The position numbers and the translations under genes were made by a program. From NCBI RefSeq assembly GCF_014696675.1, contig NZ_JACJQN010000004.1, forward strand, positions 219,730-283,729: 64,000 nucleotides of DNA. Reading direction: 5' to 3'. This DNA comes from Phormidium tenue FACHB-1052 (GTDB lineage Bacteria; Cyanobacteriota; Cyanobacteriia; Phormidesmidales; Phormidesmidaceae). Of this stretch, positions 52,757-60,688 are shown piece after piece (positions within the stretch are counted from its first letter, which is position 1; each line of letters begins with the position of its first letter). The notes beneath the pieces are model-generated. The model did no database searches, was not told the origin of the DNA, and worked only from the letters and a program-made list of their open reading frames with translations.

Positions 52757-53638
52757 CTAACCTTCGGGCCTAGCCAAACGCGCCTTCGCCCGCTGCCACA
52801 ACGCTTCTAGCTCTTGAATTGAATAGTCAGCCAGGGGCTTCTCTGCCACCGCCTCCACCAGCTCAAAGCGTTTGATAAACCGGCGGTTGGTGCCTTGCAA
52901 TGCCTCGGCAGGGTCGAGGTCGTACCAGCGGGCCAGATTCACTAAGGTAAACAACAGATCGCCCAGCTCCGCCTGCTGATTTTCCTTAGGTTCATTCGCT
53001 AAGGCCTCGTGAAACTCGTTTAGCTCTTCGTGAAATTTATCCCACACGCTATCAATGTCGTCCCATTCAAACCCGGCTTTGGCGGCTTTGGCGGAGATTT
53101 TGCTGGCGGCCATCAGCGGCGGCAGGGTGCGGCTATATTTGGTCAGTTTGGGGGTGAGCTTGTCGGGTTCGTGGGCAATGCCCTTTTCTTCGGCCTTGAT
53201 GCGATCCCAGTTTTGGCTGACTTCTTCGGGAGTCTCACCTGAGGCATCTCCAAAAATGTGAGGGTGGCGGCGCACTAGCTTGTCGGCAATGCCGGTGGCG
53301 ACGGTGCCCAGGTCAAAGTCGCCGTTGTCGCTGGCCACCTGGGCCTGAAGCACCACCTGAAGCAGCAGGTCGCCAAGTTCTTCTGCGATCGCCCCCTTTT
53401 CGCCCACCTGAATGGCATCGACCACCTCGTAGGCTTCTTCGATCACGTAGGGAATCAGGCTGGTGGGGGTTTGGGCCAAATCCCACGGGCAGCCGGTTTC
53501 GGGATGGCGCAGTTGGGCGATCACGTCGATCAGGCGTTCCAAAGCGGCGAGAATGGCGACGCGAGGGGTAGCAGAGATGCCCTGGGGATTGCCGGATGAG
53601 GAGGGCGCAGAAACCATAGCAAACCGCGTTGACGACAA
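52757..53638 (-). CDS. mazG: Nucleoside triphosphate pyrophosphohydrolase MazG
   Basis: This house-cleaning enzyme hydrolyses NTPs and dNTPs to monophosphates. It has two MazG domains with metal-binding E-x-x-E and E-x-x-D patterns: PYVIEEAYEVVDAI with EELGDLLLQVVLQAQV, then VWDKFHEELNEFHEAL with AELGDLLFTLVNLARW. The LRHPETGCPWDLAQTP motif is typical. It has 293 residues; the first 25 are poorly conserved, and the ATG at 53617 is a possible later start. Confidence 0.94.
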   Translation of the reverse strand: MSSTRFAMVSAPSSSGNPQGISATPRVAILAALERLIDVIAQLRHPETGCPWDLAQTPTSLIPYVIEEAYEVVDAIQVGEKGAIAEELGDLLLQVVLQAQVASDNGDFDLGTVATGIADKLVRRHPHIFGDASGETPEEVSQNWDRIKAEEKGIAHEPDKLTPKLTKYSRTLPPLMAASKISAKAAKAGFEWDDIDSVWDKFHEELNEFHEALANEPKENQQAELGDLLFTLVNLARWYDLDPAEALQGTNRRFIKRFELVEAVAEKPLADYSIQELEALWQRAKARLARPEG

Positions 53639-53789
53639 CCCTCATAGCATGGCAGCAAATTGCAGCGGCGGGTATATCAGCTACTACTTCTGTGCACCTG
53701 CGCTCTTGCGTATGCCCCTAGGTCTGGATGAATGTTGCCGTGGGTTGAAGCGAGTTTTGGCGCAACAGTCGTGATGCAGCGCGTGACTG

Positions 53790-54180
53790 ACTGATGTGCT
53801 GTCATGACAGAAGCATTGTGCCTTAAGCAGATCAGAGTGTAACGACCGACTATTCGAAGTCGCTCTATGACAGAAGCATGGCGTATTGAACGGGTAAGGG
53901 TGCAGCAGGCGACTACTCGAAGTTGCTCTATGACAGAAGCATTGTGTATTGACAACTTAAACAATTGCGCGAGCGCAGCAGCATTGTCGCGTCACAATCT
54001 AACAAGTTGCCGCCCCACAATGAGATGTTGAGCGATCGCACTAAAGCATTGCGGCCTCACACTAAAGCATGCAGCCGCAACACTAAAGCATTGCGGTACA
54101 GCATTCAAGGTGTCGGCAATAACAGAGGCGCGGGCGGTAACTTAGGTAACAGTGAGAGACGCTGCACAACGACAATATGA
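53790..54180. repeat. Degenerate tandem array with a 21-nt period
   Basis: The core AGCAT(T)G occurs at 53812, 53875, 53938, 53980, 54045, 54066, 54087 and 54110. The spacings of 63, 63, 42, 65, 21, 21 and 23 nt are close to multiples of 21. The best copies read CACTAAAGCATTGCGG. Longer 63-nt units (TATTCGAAGTCGCTCTATGA and variants) form the first part. Open frames over the array (53677-53964 minus, 53965-54180 plus) translate to seven-residue repeats such as NTKALRY. They are probably by-products of the period, since no ribosome-binding site or family is evident. Confidence 0.75.
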
Positions 54181-54461
54181 GCGGCAACTATCTGAGCAGG
54201 TAGCGATTTTGACTTGATTTAGAGGTTTGAATAGGGTACTTTACTGAGCTAAGGCTGTGTGCGTGCAGCTTTGCTTCCCAAAAATTTGGTCAAGCGCCAC
54301 TGGAAGGTGTTGGAGCACCAACCAGCGGCTAACCTCGTCGACAGGAGTAGCTGTCTCGGAGGCTAAGGTGATTTTACCTGGCCGTCTCGAACTGCAACAT
54401 GTCTGGGGCGGCCAAGTTTTTGGGATTCCTTACCTACCCTCAAAAAAGGAATCCCTCAACT
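54181..54461. other. Region between the repeat array and the small orphan gene
   Basis: About 280 nt. An open frame starting at 54257 has no recognisable features. A perfect 10-bp inverted repeat GGGATTCCTT/AAGGAATCCC with a 14-nt spacer occupies 54422-54455, just before the next gene. Nothing else is visible. Confidence 0.45.
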
Positions 54462-54746
54462 ATGTTGTGTTTGCCATATTTGGTGTCGTCTGCCCAGAAC
54501 CGGGAGGCGACCAATCCGCTGCTGCTGGCGAATCCTGAGGCGCAGCCGGGGCGCGAGCGTTTACGCCATTTGGTGATTGGCTCGCCGGAAGGGGTGCGAG
54601 CCACCATCAACCAACTGCATGTGCTGAACTATGCAGACCAGGCTACCTGGAGCCAGTTGATTGCGATACCGCGATCGGGGATTTTGATTACCCCAGAGCA
54701 AGGGGAGGTGTTTAGCTTGCTGAGGCGCGATCGGCAAGTGGGTTAA
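54462..54746 (+). CDS. Conserved cyanobacterial hypothetical protein
   Basis: From residue 18 the 94-residue frame reads NPLLLANPEAQPGRERLRHL and then VIGSPEGVRATINQLHVLNY and LITPEQGEVFSLLRR. I recall this pattern from small cyanobacterial proteins of unknown function. The beginning (MLCLPYLVSSAQNREA) does not look like that family, so the gene may be rearranged at its 5' end or start at an unusual codon. It is followed immediately by REP-type palindromes. Confidence 0.55.
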   Translation: MLCLPYLVSSAQNREATNPLLLANPEAQPGRERLRHLVIGSPEGVRATINQLHVLNYADQATWSQLIAIPRSGILITPEQGEVFSLLRRDRQVG

Positions 54747-54759
54747 CGCAAGCCACTTA

Positions 54760-54822
54760 AGGGGTCAGGTGCCTTTCAAGCCGTGATGTTACCTGTCGCA
54801 GCATCAAAGGCACCTGACCCCT
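54760..54822. repeat. REP palindrome left of the transposase
   Basis: AGGGGTCAGGTGCCTTT (54760-54776) is exactly inverted at 54806-54822, a 17-bp stem with a 29-nt loop. A further half-copy, AAGGCACCTGACCCCT, appears at about 54890-54905. The motif resembles the substrates of REP-associated tyrosine transposases, and the gene for one follows. Confidence 0.85.
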
Positions 54823-54884
54823 GGTGCCAAAGACCCCTGATGCCAAAGACCCCTGATGCCAAGACCCCTGATGCCAAGACCCTT
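54823..54884. repeat. Four tandem 15-16-nt direct repeats
   Basis: GGTGCCAAAGACCCCT, GATGCCAAAGACCCCT, GATGCCAAGACCCCT and GATGCCAAGACCCTT lie head to tail between the REP hairpin and the REP half-copy. They probably arose from the REP by slippage. They are too short, with no spacers, for a CRISPR. Confidence 0.85.
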
Positions 54885-54948
54885 AGATGAAGGCACCTGA
54901 CCCCTGATGCGGGGAACTCTACAGTTATGACATTCAAACCGTAGGGCT

Positions 54949-55479
54949 ATGCCTCGATCGCAGCGCAACCTGGTGCCAGGAGAGCACTACCATCTCTACA
55001 ACCGAGGCAACAATCGCCAGAGTATTTTTTTCGAGCGAGAAAACTATCTCTATTTTCTCAAGCAGTTCCGCCACTTTGTCGCAGACGAAACAGTGCATGT
55101 TGTGGCCTACTGCCTGATGCCTAACCACTACCATGTGCTGGTTTATCTGCGCGAAGATGGACTATCAAAGGCGATGCAGCGATTTACGATGTCGTACACC
55201 AACGCTATTAACCTCCGCTACAAACGCTGTGGGGCATTGTTTCAGGGGCGATTCAATACCATTCATGTCGATAGCGAAGCCTACCTGCTGCAACTGACTC
55301 GCTATATTCACCTGAACCCTGTGAGGGCGTGTTTGGTGCAGCGCCCGGAGGAGTGGGAGTTTTCGAGCTATTGCGACTATGTGGAGTTGCGGCGGGGCAC
55401 TCTGCCGCAGATGGGTAGTGTGTTGAAGCAGATGGGCTCAGCAGAGGCGTATCGGCGGTTTGTGGAGTTTCCTGGATAG
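54949..55479 (+). CDS. REP-associated tyrosine transposase (IS200-like Y1 domain)
   Basis: The 176-residue RAYT has the Y1 transposase fold. The metal-binding His pair is H60/H62 in LMPNHYHVLV. The candidate nucleophile Tyr is Y119 in LTRYIHLNPVRA. The N-terminus RNLVPGEHYHLYNRGNNRQ is typical. These single-strand transposases cut and join at REP palindromes and are usually single-copy, domesticated enzymes. REP-like hairpins sit on both sides (54760-54905 and 55493-55554), supporting a matched RAYT/REP set. All catalytic residues appear intact. Confidence 0.92.
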   Translation: MPRSQRNLVPGEHYHLYNRGNNRQSIFFERENYLYFLKQFRHFVADETVHVVAYCLMPNHYHVLVYLREDGLSKAMQRFTMSYTNAINLRYKRCGALFQGRFNTIHVDSEAYLLQLTRYIHLNPVRACLVQRPEEWEFSSYCDYVELRRGTLPQMGSVLKQMGSAEAYRRFVEFPG

Positions 55480-55768
55480 GGAAGCTTTGGTCAGGGGACG
55501 GGTGCCTGGAACTTGACCGAGATCTTGGCTAAAAGGCGAAGGTACTCGTCCCCTTTGGAGGCAACTTGCTTGACGAAAATAGACCATAGCCCGCTGTGGC
55601 TCTGCCTGCAAACTCCCGTCGTGTCAAACCTACCCTATGCCCACCCGGCAGTTCCTCACTGCTGCGCACTGGCGATATATAGACGATAAATGTAAGAGTT
55701 CAACAACCTGATGTGGGAATGCTTATGTGAGCCTAAAAAAATAACAGTAAGTGCATCGGTGGCAAACT
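55480..55768. other. Gap between the transposase and the GTPase gene
   Basis: Apart from the REP-like hairpin at 55493-55554, the gap shows no gene. The last 80 nt are AT-rich and probably contain the promoter of the GTPase cassette. Confidence 0.5.
55493..55554. repeat. REP-like palindrome right of the transposase
   Basis: AGGGGACGGGTGCCT (55493-55507) is inverted as AGGTACTCGTCCCCT (55540-55554), with 13 of 15 matching positions. The left arm matches the left-side REP (AGGGGTCAGGTGCCT) at 12 of 15 positions. Confidence 0.7.
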
Positions 55769-58204
55769 ATGGAAAACAATTCTTTTCAATACCCTGAATT
55801 GCAACAGGATATTGGCAATCTGATCAGCTTGTTTTCCAAAGAGCCTAGTCTTCGGAATCAACACAACCTCACAGTTATTCAGGAGTCTTTAAGAAAAGTT
55901 GTTTCGCCCACCTTTGAAATTGTTTTTTCAGGTGCTTTTAGCGCTGGAAAATCAATGCTAATCAACGCGCTTTTAGGCAGAAAGCTACTCTACAGTTCAG
56001 AAGGACATGCCACAGGAACAGAGTGTAGAATTGCCTATGCTGAGCCAGGTCAAGAAAAAGTAGTTTTGACCTTTCTAAGTGAAGCAGAAATTGTAGAGCA
56101 GGTAACCGTCAACAGTAGTCGGTTAGGAATCAAAGTTACAAGTTCAACCTTTGACAATGCAGCTCGTCAGCTTGTGAGACAGAGTTGCCAAAAAATTATT
56201 GACGAAGAAAGGGGTGAGCATCGCTCAGAAAAGGCAAAGCAAGCAAATGCTTTGTCACTACTGATTCAGGGTTACGAGAAGAACCGTGAATTTATCAATC
56301 CTCAAGACAACGCAACATATTCCATGGAGAAGTTTAATTTCTCCACGTTACAGGAAGCAGCCAATTATGCTCGCCGAGGTTCAAATAGTGCTGTCCTGAA
56401 GCGGATAGAATACTTTTGTTGTGATCCATTGCTTAAAGATGGCAATATTCTAATTGACACCCCTGGTATTGACGCCCCGGTGCGTAAGGACGCAGAGCTT
56501 ACTTACAAGAAAATCCAGCATCCAGATACATCTGCTATTGTCTGTGTTTTAAAAACCGCTGAAACTGGCGAGCTTACCGCTGAAGAAACGGAACTTTTGG
56601 AAACAATACAAAATAATCCTGGCATTCGAGACAGAGTATTTTATATATTTAATCGAGTTGATAAAACATGGTACAATCCACAGCTCCGCAAGCGCTTAGA
56701 AAACTGTATAAAAACACAGTTCAGGGATAGTTCAAGAGTTTTTCAAACGAGTGGTCTTTTAGGGTTTTACGGTCGTTTGATTCAAGAAACTAGCGCAAGT
56801 GATAGGTTTGGTCTAGACAGTCTATTTCTTGAAGAGATTCAAGGATTAAGCAACAACGAAGAGACACCGCTCTTCGTAACTGAATTCAACAACTACTGCG
56901 GGAATTCTGGAAATCTGTTTGATAGCTCCTTTAAAGCAGAAATTAGAGGCTATGAGTCACCCAACCAGAACTATGTTCGAGTTCTCGGTGAACACGGCCA
57001 GCCCCTCATCCAAAAAATGATTCAGGATAGTGGGCTGGAGGTCTTTCGTGAGTCGATCATAAATTACCTGGTTTATGAGAAGAAACCCCAACTGATAAGT
57101 ACGCTTATCAATGATCTGTACCCTGTTTGTACAGCACTTCGAGAGTTCTATCTTCATCAGCACCAAATTTTAGTTCAACAACCTCAAACAGCAGAGGAAA
57201 TAAAATCTCAGAAAACTAGACAGCTTGCAGCAGAGCTTAAAGATGTTGGAGATCAATTTGAAGCTGCGATCAAGGATGAGATAAATGGAATAGCAGCAAG
57301 CAACTACAACGAAGAATTTGAGCGTGATTTCCTTAAGCTAAAAGCTCAAATGGTGACTCGGCTAGATGAGCTAATTCATACCTTTAGTGTCGAAACTGTT
57401 TATCAGAAAGCTCAAGCCAGTCATCGAAGAAACTCAGTTGTTCCTTTATTGGGTATATTGGCTGAGGCATTTTACTATTTGGCAAATGGCTTAGAGGAAG
57501 TACTTGTAAATAGCTCCCAAGACCTTGTTCAAAGATACTTTCAAAGATTTATCAACCAAATTAGAGATTCAGATTATTATCGCGACATCTATCACTTGCT
57601 TGGAAACGATGCAGGAATCGAAGAAAGGCTAAATCAAGCTCAGAAGTTGATTTGTGAGGCAATCATTAATGAGGCGCACACAGAGTGCGATCGCTATGTT
57701 CGAGAACGCCCTGAATTTTATAAAGAAGGTTCTCCTTCAGTTTGGCAGCTTTGTCAAACTCTTCAACAAGCCTGCCAAGGTTATGACTATCACACAATGA
57801 TTGATGCCGAGCCAGCCATTCGACAACTTCTCAAGCTGGATTTCGAGCAAAAGGTGAGAGAAACAGTACTCAGAACATACCGTCAAACTATTAACCAAAC
57901 ATTGAATATTCATTTACTAAAAATAGCAGACGAGCAGAGAACTGCTATCTTGCAGCAATATGATCACGCCCGCGAATATCTTTCACAAACCTTAGAAAAA
58001 GAAGCCGTCAAGAAAGCAGAGGCTAACCAAATGAGAAGACGCGAGCTTGAGGCAGATATCGATACTTACAATTCTGTCGTTAATAGAATCAATGATTTTC
58101 TTGAGAGCATACAATTAGATCGAGACAAACTGCCTAATATGAGTCAACGAGATCTGGAAGCTATTCTGTCAGATTCACAACAAGGCTATCTTCCGAAGAA
58201 CTAG
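55769..58204 (+). CDS. Dynamin-family large GTPase
   Basis: The 811-residue protein is a bacterial dynamin-like GTPase. The P-loop is SGAFSAGKSMLINALLG with K61. The switch I Thr lies in ATGTECRIAY. G3 is DTPGIDAP (D230), and G4 is NRVDK (295-299). The remainder is helical, with a hydrophobic stretch (VVPLLGILAEAFYYLANGLE) near residue 560 that could be a membrane-contacting paddle. Coiled-coil segments follow near the C-terminus (EKEAVKKAEANQMRRRELEA). The region is visibly richer in AT than neighbouring genes, which suggests transfer. Two KGK proteins and an HNH nuclease follow on the same strand. The start is the ATG at 55769; a GTG 6 codons upstream is possible. Confidence 0.9.
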   Translation: MENNSFQYPELQQDIGNLISLFSKEPSLRNQHNLTVIQESLRKVVSPTFEIVFSGAFSAGKSMLINALLGRKLLYSSEGHATGTECRIAYAEPGQEKVVLTFLSEAEIVEQVTVNSSRLGIKVTSSTFDNAARQLVRQSCQKIIDEERGEHRSEKAKQANALSLLIQGYEKNREFINPQDNATYSMEKFNFSTLQEAANYARRGSNSAVLKRIEYFCCDPLLKDGNILIDTPGIDAPVRKDAELTYKKIQHPDTSAIVCVLKTAETGELTAEETELLETIQNNPGIRDRVFYIFNRVDKTWYNPQLRKRLENCIKTQFRDSSRVFQTSGLLGFYGRLIQETSASDRFGLDSLFLEEIQGLSNNEETPLFVTEFNNYCGNSGNLFDSSFKAEIRGYESPNQNYVRVLGEHGQPLIQKMIQDSGLEVFRESIINYLVYEKKPQLISTLINDLYPVCTALREFYLHQHQILVQQPQTAEEIKSQKTRQLAAELKDVGDQFEAAIKDEINGIAASNYNEEFERDFLKLKAQMVTRLDELIHTFSVETVYQKAQASHRRNSVVPLLGILAEAFYYLANGLEEVLVNSSQDLVQRYFQRFINQIRDSDYYRDIYHLLGNDAGIEERLNQAQKLICEAIINEAHTECDRYVRERPEFYKEGSPSVWQLCQTLQQACQGYDYHTMIDAEPAIRQLLKLDFEQKVRETVLRTYRQTINQTLNIHLLKIADEQRTAILQQYDHAREYLSQTLEKEAVKKAEANQMRRRELEADIDTYNSVVNRINDFLESIQLDRDKLPNMSQRDLEAILSDSQQGYLPKN

Positions 58205-58278
58205 CTGTAAAGACAGAGGCTTTTTGTAAGCAAACGAAATGTTTCTAATCAAATACCGAGAACTGTAGCGAGGCAGAA

Positions 58279-58680
58279 ATGGACATTGAATACTCTGGCA
58301 TTGAAGAAGATGATGTGTTTGAGATCTTTCTACAAAAGAGAGCGCGCCATTCTGATGAAATCTTGCTTGAGTCTACTGGCAAGATCTACAGGTTTGCCCA
58401 AATCGAGAAAGCATTGAAACATTTAAGCTCAAGTATTGCAAGTAATGTTTATAGTTCCCTTCTTCAGAATCATGGAATAGATCTAAAAGACAATAGCTTC
58501 CTCAGCAGTGGAATAGTTTGCAAACTGCTAAGCTCTGAGCATCCTGGATGGAAGCTTGGAAAGTTAGAGGTTCGAATTCAAGTAAATTTTATACCAGACG
58601 CTCCTCAAGAGGCTGAAGATGCTGGTTACCAGGAGAATGATCGCGAGTCTGAACTGGATGAGCTTAGAAAGGTTGTATAG
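58279..58680 (+). CDS. KGK-domain protein, copy 1
   Basis: The 133-residue protein carries the C-terminal signature of the cyanobacterial KGK family (PF08872): GIVCKLLSSEHPGWKLGKLE, then RIQVNFIPDAP and a terminal SELDELRKVV. The function of the family is unknown. The N-terminal half, with EDDVFEIFLQK, resembles the usual 'expression level' segment of KGK proteins. The gene starts 75 nt after the GTPase stop and is followed by a second, related copy. Confidence 0.78.
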   Translation: MDIEYSGIEEDDVFEIFLQKRARHSDEILLESTGKIYRFAQIEKALKHLSSSIASNVYSSLLQNHGIDLKDNSFLSSGIVCKLLSSEHPGWKLGKLEVRIQVNFIPDAPQEAEDAGYQENDRESELDELRKVV

Positions 58681-58702
58681 AAATAGTAGGCAAGGCTTAA
58701 CT

Positions 58703-59035
58703 GTGGAAAATAAAAGGATTGTATTAGCTGACGAAGAAGTAATTCTGCTAAACAACACTGAAAATGATTTCAGAAGTAGCTTTAGCTTGCCAAGAACCTT
58801 TAGGATTGACGACCTCAAGGCGAGATTCATTCATCGAAGTTCAAAAACTTCAATTTTCGACTGGGTAGAGGTAGAGGTTATGCGTTTAGGCAAAGGAGAT
58901 TGGCAAAAAGGAAAGATGAGAATTGAGTGTGTTTTCATGCCTGATGAAGAAGAACGAAATCCACAGAATCCTGAAGACAATCCCTTAGACGAGCTAAGAA
59001 CAAAGATTAGTAAGTTTGATGAGCAAAATAAATGA
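58703..59035 (+). CDS. KGK-domain protein, copy 2
   Basis: From the GTG at 58703 the product has 110 residues and begins VENKRIVLADEEVILLNN. The KGK signature is WQKGKMRIECVFMPDEEE, followed by PEDNPLDELRTKI. It is clearly related to the preceding protein (W-x-x-G-K-x-R-I-x-F-P-D ... LDELR). AGGCAAGG lies 7 nt upstream of the GTG. The frame opens earlier (58619), but that would overlap copy 1. Its stop overlaps the HNH start by ATGA, implying translational coupling. Confidence 0.75.
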   Translation: MENKRIVLADEEVILLNNTENDFRSSFSLPRTFRIDDLKARFIHRSSKTSIFDWVEVEVMRLGKGDWQKGKMRIECVFMPDEEERNPQNPEDNPLDELRTKISKFDEQNK

Positions 59036-59277
59036 CTCGGATAAAGCGAATTCCTATACCAAAATCAGTTAGAGAATATGTTTTGAATAGGGATAATCAT
59101 CAATGTAAGTCTTGCGGCAAAAAGAGTTCAGAAGTCAAGTTGCAAATTGATCACATTCTCCCTCTTGCGAAAGGTGGCGTCAACGACATCAGCAACTTAC
59201 AAACCCTTTGCAAAGGCTGTAATCAAAAGAAAAGTGCCAAGATCGATAATCGTTTTCGGCGAGACTACACCCTGTAA
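59032..59277 (+). CDS. Small HNH endonuclease
   Basis: The 81-residue protein is an HNH/McrA-type nuclease domain with little else. Zinc ligands are C25/C28 (CKSCG) and C60/C63 (CKGCN). The catalytic His lies in QIDHILPLAKGG (D40/H41), and the Asn lies in NDISNLQTL (N55). All key residues are present. A basic N-terminus (MTRIKRIPIPKSVREYVLNR) could bind DNA. The start overlaps the upstream KGK stop by ATGA. Confidence 0.9.
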   Translation: MTRIKRIPIPKSVREYVLNRDNHQCKSCGKKSSEVKLQIDHILPLAKGGVNDISNLQTLCKGCNQKKSAKIDNRFRRDYTL

Positions 59278-59485
59278 CTATCCCCAGAGCACATCTATCG
59301 TTGGGATTGACACACATGTCATCAGATCTTGCTAAACCGTCGTAGTGCAGAGCGGGCAACTCCATATAAGATAGCCATGGCCAGAGCGTTACTGTTCTAT
59401 CTAGAACCCCAATCTTTGGCTCAGCCAGTCGTCCGCTCAAGACGGCTGCATCAACGAATCGTCTAACGAAAGTAGGGAATTGCCC

Positions 59486-60688
59486 ATGGGTCGCGCAGAG
59501 AAAGTTGTCTTAGCCTATTCCGGTGGCGTCGATACCACCGTCTGTATTCCCTACCTGATGAATGAGTGGGGCGTTAAAGAGGTGATTACCCTGGCGGCAG
59601 ATCTGGGCCAGGGCGACGAGCTAGAGCCCATTCGCCTCAAGGCGCTAAATGCCGGGGTCAAAGAATCCCTAATCGCTGACCTGACCGAAGAATTTATTAC
59701 CGACTACGCCTTCCCCGCCATTCAGGCCAACGCCCTCTACGAAAACCGCTACCCCCTCTCTACCGCCCTGGCACGCCCGCTAATCGCCAAAGCCTTGGTC
59801 GAAGCCGCCGATCGCTACGGGGCCGATGCCGTCGCCCACGGCTGCACCGGCAAGGGCAATGACCAAGTGCGCTTTGATGTGGCGATCGCCGCCCTCAACC
59901 CCAACCTCAAGGTGCTAGCCCCCGCCCGCGAGTGGGGTATGGGCCGCGAAGAGACCATTGCCTACGGCGAAAAAATGGGCCTCGAATTTCCGGTGAAGAA
60001 ATCCAGCCCCTACAGCATCGATCGCAACCTGCTGGGCCGCAGCATCGAGGCCGGGCCGCTCGAAAACCCCATGACCGAGCCGCTAGAAGAAGTCTTTTTG
60101 ATGACCGAGGCGATCGAAAACACCCCCAACGAGCCGGAATATATCGACATCGGCTTTACCAAGGGTTTGCCTACCAGCCTCAACGGTGAAGCCCTAAGCC
60201 CGGTAGAGCTGATTACGCAGCTGAATGCGATCGCCGGTCGCCACGGCGTAGGCCGCATCGACATGATCGAAAACCGCCTGGTAGGCATCAAATCGCGCGA
60301 AATCTACGAAGCCCCCGCCCTACTGGTGCTGATCGACGCCCACCGCGACCTGGAGAGCCTGACCCTCACCGCCGACGTCACCCAGTACAAGCGCGGCATT
60401 GAAGAAACCTACAGCCGCCTAGTCTACAACGGCCTCTGGTACAGCCCCCTCAAGCTGGCGCTCGATGCCTTCATTCAGCAAACCCAGGAACGCGTCAGCG
60501 GCACCGTGCGGGTGAAGCTGTTTAAGGGCACCAACCGAGTGGTGGGCCGCGAGTCTAACCTGGCCCTCTATAGCGATGCCCTAGCTACCTACAGCTCCGA
60601 CGATGCCTTTGACCACAAGGCCGCCGAGGGCTTTATCTATGTGTGGGGCCTGCCCACCCGCGTCTGGTCTGAGAAGATGCGCGGTTAG
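59486..60688 (+). CDS. argG: Argininosuccinate synthase
   Basis: This enzyme joins citrulline and aspartate with ATP, the penultimate step of arginine synthesis. The 400-residue length is normal. The PP-loop is [11 protein letters not shown] near residue 10. [13 protein letters not shown] and the [17 protein letters not shown] region are conserved. The ATG at 59486 ([14 protein letters not shown]) follows AGTAGGGAAT; a TTG two codons earlier is possible. Confidence 0.97.

Follow-up and report, generated by a model that had tools for sequence, protein, structure and literature searches.

Association of a SynDLP-type dynamin-like GTPase with KGK proteins and a small HNH protein in Phormidium tenue and other cyanobacteria

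The four-gene cassette and its GTPase

Cyanobacterial dynamins have been divided into six groups, the first of which typically has a gene for a KGK protein downstream (Jilly et al. 2018, PMC5827413). A GTPase of this kind is described here from Phormidium tenue FACHB-1052, in a 64,000-nucleotide stretch of contig NZ_JACJQN010000004.1 (the window, to which all positions refer), where it heads a row formed with two KGK genes and a gene for a small HNH protein, a predicted nuclease. A sequence-only reading of this DNA had taken four same-strand genes at this place for a possible undescribed defence or abortive-infection module. The genes do share the + strand, and all of them are supported by Pfam (Dynamin_N, PF08872 twice and HNH_5):

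55769-58204, + strand, gene of the SynDLP-type dynamin-like GTPase; 811 amino acids; Dynamin_N, 4.7e-16; P-loop GAFSAGKSMLINALL
58279-58680, + strand, KGK protein 1 (KGK1); 133 amino acids; PF08872, 3e-17; C-terminal ...ELDELRKVV
58703-59035, + strand, KGK protein 2 (KGK2); 110 amino acids from a GTG start; PF08872, 1.5e-10; tail ...NPLDELRTKISKFDEQNK
59032-59277, + strand, gene of the small HNH protein; 81 amino acids; HNH_5, 1e-19

The GTPase gene begins with the ATG at 55769, and an alternative open GTG start lies at 55751. The GTG at 58703 was chosen as the start of KGK2; the listed open reading frame (ORF) opens instead at 58619, within KGK1. The ATGA overlap claimed for the last two genes is present at 59032-59035, where the KGK2 stop and the HNH start share these bases. 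The base composition departs from that of the flanks, as had also been noted, the content of guanine plus cytosine (G+C) being 0.403 in the cassette and 0.576 in the flanks at the same locus. A low G+C is in part characteristic of the module itself, which falls below its flanks in 71 of 85 loci; of the 15 loci listed with the highest flank G+C, those of the window genome and the congener G007 show the largest difference.

Residues 7-796 of the window GTPase align with Slr0869/SynDLP of Synechocystis (PDB 7zw6) at an E-value of 3.3e-278. SynDLP has been assigned to the KGK clade and its structure solved (PDB 7zw6); it is reported to form ordered oligomers, to bind negatively charged thylakoid lipids and to fuse membranes in vitro, and appears to be non-essential in Synechocystis under standard growth (PMC10104851). 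The window GTPase has the extended P-loop GxxxxGKS/TxL/INALL/I, the downstream KGK gene and the whole-length similarity to SynDLP that are characteristic of this clade (PMC5827413). The P-loop and the DxPG motif are intact in 100 of 100 related GTPases, and N/T-K/R-x-D in 97. The window protein differs from SynDLP in a conserved cysteine pair, which is described together with a C777A variant in the SynDLP paper (PMC10104851); read off the alignment, the partner of C777 would be C8. This pair of the BSE domain, reported for the clade but not defining it, is absent from the window GTPase, which has Y8 and F777, and the GTPases of two congeners likewise lack both cysteines. Among 100 relatives, cysteines occur near both SynDLP sites in 85, near one of them in 6 and near neither in 9.

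Linkage and co-occurrence of the KGK and HNH partners

The neighborhoods of related GTPases were compared in 100 loci from 99 genomes, hand-picked from the 142 with a match; most of those passed over had a weak or fragmentary copy or one at the end of a contig. These loci were also the source of the KGK and HNH profiles with which they were searched. All 201 KGK and HNH matches lie downstream of the GTPase gene and on its strand, in 457 kb searched there, and none was found in 460 kb upstream. The 89 loci with at least 3 kb of downstream sequence contain an HNH gene in 61 cases and a KGK gene in 60, which amounts to both in 50, HNH only in 11, KGK only in 10 and neither in 18. Where both occur, the HNH gene follows every KGK gene (53 of 53 loci). 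Of the 25 families, 22 have one or more loci with an HNH gene following the GTPase, as have 41 of the 55 genera, for example in Fortiea sp. LEGE XX443 and in Nostoc spp. FACHB-110, TH1S01 and CHAB 5844. The co-occurrence of these gene families in cyanobacterial genomes, on which the sequence-only reading had made its proposal depend, is thus borne out as a conserved linkage that includes the nuclease gene.

In addition to linkage, the presence of the HNH gene anywhere in a genome was compared with that of the GTPase gene. Small HNH genes are common, with matches at E <= 1e-6 in 115 of 116 genomes; a profile of 18 cassette HNH sequences (A1), however, delimits a distinct group in the same genomes, with 36 places scoring at least 100 bits and the next one 92. 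At thresholds of at least 100 bits for HNH and E <= 1e-50 for the GTPase, 35 of the 116 genomes carry both genes, 7 the GTPase alone, 1 the HNH gene alone and 73 neither; counted by genus, the respective numbers are 21, 6, 1 and 43. The genomes were drawn in a nested way from a single class and Fisher tests ignore kinship, for which the genus table is only a partial remedy. Ten families are mixed for the GTPase. The HNH gene tracks it without exception in families f1, f3, f15, f19, f23 and f24, and the exceptions fall in f4, f5, f11 and f26; in one of the exceptional genomes, G025, the GTPase contig stops soon past the KGK genes. This co-occurrence of GTPase and HNH is the main new result of the analysis.

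The partner is also found at a distance. No HNH match occurs in 36 of the 100 loci, and several of these loci end near the GTPase, so that apparent separation can be an effect of assembly. A search of 28 of these genomes recovered the HNH gene elsewhere in 18 (once with an internal stop), and in four genomes (G370, G198, G323 and G072) it lies 26-38 kb from the GTPase gene on the same contig. Among the eight other genomes, an HNH gene is present elsewhere in G074, G045, G098 and G090 and decayed in place in G281, none was found in the genomes of G091 and G134, and G142 was outside the search. Of 25 detached HNH loci, five retain an adjoining KGK gene and 20 have none within the stretch read, mostly flanks of 1.5 kb. 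Pairwise distances of HNH proteins correlate with those of the GTPases (r 0.66 over 62 pairs, 0.49 between families).

The GTPase-KGK pair has already been published (PMC5827413, PMC10104851), so the proposed module is undescribed only in its HNH partner, which is the new part. The term HNH is absent from the main texts of these two papers, a coverage in which a mention in supplementary material such as Jilly's gene table would have been missed, and no paper linking dynamin, KGK and HNH was found in the open-access PMC literature. Within the HNH proteins of the cassettes, C25 and C28 are present in 64 of 64 sequences, H41 in 63, D40, C60, C63 and N64 in 62 and N55 in 61. The zinc-binding cysteines and the D-H, N and N residues of the HNH fold are thereby present, and a nuclease function is predicted.

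A search of 194 genomes gave 73 KGK matches scoring 50 bits or more, 64 of them no further than 5 kb from this GTPase. A second kind of KGK protein stands alone in genomes without the GTPase. In the cassette proteins, a C-terminal motif is found past a variable linker, with L126 in 89, D127 in 85 and R130 in 85 of 94 aligned sequences (122 were of suitable length, 107 of which were picked as diverse and 94 aligned). The pattern LDx[ILMV]R occurs within the last 35 residues of 96 of 133 cassette KGK proteins, compared with 1 of 1016 other ORFs of comparable length and 2 of 23 KGK proteins from 20 GTPase-free genomes; KGK1 and KGK2 of the window both carry it. Among the 150 matches listed, 119 come from GTPase genomes, and 105 of these reach model position 112, as against 7 of the 31 from other genomes. 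The tail is a putative docking peptide. The lone KGK proteins of GTPase-free genomes (L208-L230) differ from the cassette kind in their long charged tails, many with acidic residues and a tyrosine at the end. The KGK fold is predicted with moderate confidence as an alpha/beta core without a clear relative (mean predicted local distance difference test score, pLDDT, of 79.4 for the KGK1 model).

KGK proteins also vary more than their partners. Their number per locus ranges from 0 to 7, and any two of them share a median of 28% identity, compared with 60% for both GTPase and HNH. When the window genome (G000) is set against its congener G006, the GTPases are 90.9% identical, the HNH proteins 88.9%, the KGK2 proteins 77.1% and the KGK1 proteins 58.6%.

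Several loci depart from the usual arrangement. The KGK1 gene of G007 (L042) is broken by an in-frame stop, with GTPase, KGK2 and HNH still open, and in L203 (G059) and L204 (G088) the GTPase is in two frames and the KGK and HNH genes are kept. In L064, L065, L067 and L098, a protein of 498 to 559 residues with weak KGK-like stretches is encoded past the HNH gene, and its N-terminal part appears MazG-like by eye. A GNAT acetyltransferase gene with a small preceding gene, by appearance a toxin-antitoxin pair, lies between the GTPase and the usual KGK/HNH place in L069, L071, L072 and L073.

Site of the cassette and surrounding repeats

The cassette lies between mazG and argG, identified by Pfam, and in a stretch that two congeners lack. 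The surrounding features are the following:

53675-59315, strand not applicable, stretch without counterpart at this site in congeners G017 and G010; contains the cassette and the left-hand repeats
54190-54745, + strand, dispersed repeat left of the cassette; 7 copies in its own genome, itself counted
52757-53638, - strand, mazG, left neighbor of the four-gene row
59480-60688, + strand, argG, right neighbor of the four-gene row
54816-54882, repeat array upstream of the cassette
54949-55479, REP-associated transposase, NF047646 match, upstream of the cassette

Of 25 genomes in the genus, 3 have the GTPase gene. The alignment blocks of G017 and G010 leap from 59316 to 53674, separated by 11 bases, so that the flanks nearly meet and about 5.6 kb, with the cassette inside, is missing. 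In G007 the cassette occupies the site that it has in the window, and in G006 the four-gene unit (55685-59310 aligned, 83.5%) is on a contig without argG. The dispersed repeat, the copies of which are 75-100% identical within the window genome and which holds a 115-codon ORF with no Pfam family, adjoins the cassette on its left in the window genome, G006 and G007, at two different sites in the genus. Since it is found there in all three, recombination between such repeats may have moved the cassette.

The sequence-only reading had placed the genes next to a transposase and a repeat array. Both are indeed upstream, but they lie outside the unit, because G007 carries the same cassette without segment 54736-55617 beside it, and in G006 the parts matching the two sides of this segment are only about 100 bases apart. 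The segment, which comprises the REP-associated transposase and a 16-base tandem array, has one full copy in its own genome.

Possible functions of the module

We consider that GTPase, KGK and HNH proteins form one module whose members likely act together, delivering a nuclease against phage or other incoming DNA, a tentative reading to which we give a probability of roughly 0.36. It is supported by the conserved gene order, the co-occurrence even of unlinked genes, the correlated distances, the intact GTPase and HNH motifs and the KGK tail, which distinguishes the cassette proteins. In the mechanism that we propose, the GTPase would assemble where a membrane is damaged or invaded, and the HNH protein would be docked to it by the KGK proteins by means of their LDx[ILMV]R tail; this predicted nuclease would then cut DNA at the membrane, plausibly that of a phage or other incoming DNA. 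Inferred in this scheme are the docking step, the way in which the nuclease is controlled, what it cuts and that it serves in defence. The part concerning nuclease delivery and phage is suggested by the patchy presence of the module, its split and fragmentary copies, the fast-changing KGK1 and the precedent of DynA, a dynamin reported to slow phage lysis (PMC8844932). In addition, a survey of bloom-forming cyanobacteria puts dynamins among abortive-infection-like systems (PMC11265339). A defence role is thus possible, though unproven.

Comparison with known systems gives partial likenesses. Bacillus subtilis DynA is also a membrane-acting dynamin, and the NCBIfam DynA model matches window residues 20-253 at 1.6e-11, but the score is 42.8 bits against a cut-off of 1600, and no nuclease or KGK partner is reported for DynA in the abstract of that study (PMC8844932). 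LeoA of the LeoA/LeoBC dynamin systems in PADLOC shares the dynamin-type GTPase domain (LeoA model, 2.1e-07), but the match spans about 50 residues and the gene set is another one. Membership in the LeoA/HP0731 subfamily was considered and rejected, the window GTPase reaching 13.4 bits against a cut-off of 325. With Septu (PtuB, 3.1e-06) and type II Zorya (ZorE, 0.028) only the HNH domain is shared; the NTPase here is a dynamin, and the HNH matches are partial, that of ZorE far under its cut-off.

A number of observations weigh against a defence module. A PADLOC scan of 148 direct neighbors (of 182 genes, 164 had at most 700 amino acids, 150 were fitting and 148 were scanned) matched 59 families at 1e-10, none in more than three proteins, though with no matched control, and the Pfam families of the neighbors, among 25 of 211 listed, are varied and mostly metabolic. 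The module was not matched in a plasmid search, and no relative was found on viral contigs in a scan sensitive to close relatives only. The reported action of DynA involves no nuclease, and it does not halt the replication of phage (PMC8844932). Seven of the 42 GTPase genomes lack the HNH gene, three of them from family f26, and G029, which has the GTPase and HNH genes, has no KGK match in its whole genome. Nor is positive selection seen between G000 and G006, since the nonsynonymous rate (dN) is below the synonymous rate (dS) in all four genes. Typical defence genes are expected to exchange freely. The GTPase tree (FastTree, with some long branches) instead tracks host families, with 26 label changes against a minimum of 24 and a shuffled mean of 73.6, a pattern that indicates an old gene, inherited mostly vertically, often lost and sometimes transferred. 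The sequence-only reading had named a vertically inherited housekeeping group as evidence against its proposal; descent does fit this in part, but the gene is not strictly a housekeeping one, given its presence in 121 of 388 genomes (hand count, E <= 1e-50) and 3 of 25 congeners, and the apparent dispensability of SynDLP in Synechocystis (PMC10104851) is a further point against that label.

This pattern of descent is what would be expected of a mostly vertical membrane stress or repair module, in which the GTPase, tuned by the KGK proteins, would remodel the thylakoid or plasma membrane and the part of the HNH protein would be secondary. Such a role is suggested by the SynDLP authors and agrees with the lipid binding and in vitro fusion that they report (PMC10104851). 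It also agrees with expression in Synechocystis, where slr0869 is lowered in strains without several sigma factors (PMC8875361) and loss of lexA raises slr0868-slr0871 about 6- to 16-fold (PMC4759255). The latter study ties LexA to motility, salt and glucosylglycerol and not to the SOS response, phage or DNA damage, which again speaks against defence, and slr0868 does not figure among the LexA binding tests listed there (PMC4759255). A repair module leaves unexplained, however, why one catalytically intact HNH family tracks the GTPase even when unlinked and why losses occur within genera, and we regard it as a doubtful but serious explanation. That KGK proteins act as inhibitors and keep the HNH nuclease inactive, in the manner of toxin/antidote pairs, until the assembling GTPase releases it, is suggested by the position of KGK genes directly before HNH with the ATGA overlap of the window, by the five detached HNH loci that keep a KGK gene and by the variable KGK copy number; against it stand the 20 other detached loci with no KGK gene in the stretch read, the 11 of 89 GTPase loci with HNH alone and G029, and this reading appears improbable.

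The label given by JGI to many of the relatives, "replication fork clamp-binding protein CrfC", would imply a nucleoid or replication module like that of the dynamin-related, clamp-binding GTPase of Escherichia coli, with the HNH protein processing DNA, and CrfC is a nucleoid partition factor (PMC6374313). SynDLP, however, is a lipid-binding protein (PMC10104851), and the clamp-binding motif of CrfC, QL[SD]LF near the N-terminus, is found in the first 75 residues of none of 100 GTPases; this reading appears quite improbable. Finally, the abundance of small HNH genes might mean that this one is a hitch-hiker, e.g. a homing gene, that came to lie behind the GTPase by chance. This would be most unlikely: the HNH group is distinct, its linked members are always downstream of the GTPase and share its strand, and a hitch-hiker dependent on linkage would not track a GTPase to which it is no longer linked.

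The joint-action reading would, in its widest form, describe a three-part cyanobacterial immune module in which the bacterial dynamin put forward as the nearest to its eukaryotic counterpart would be the membrane sensor and rapidly diverging KGK adaptors, by their docking tail, would deliver an HNH nuclease to phage DNA at the membrane; we consider this form rather unlikely. Whatever the substrate, an HNH partner that tracks the GTPase over many families, even when unlinked, makes the role of the module testable through HNH mutants, and the KGK family, described in print as "enigmatic", gains a likely adaptor role and a short motif that can be mutated.

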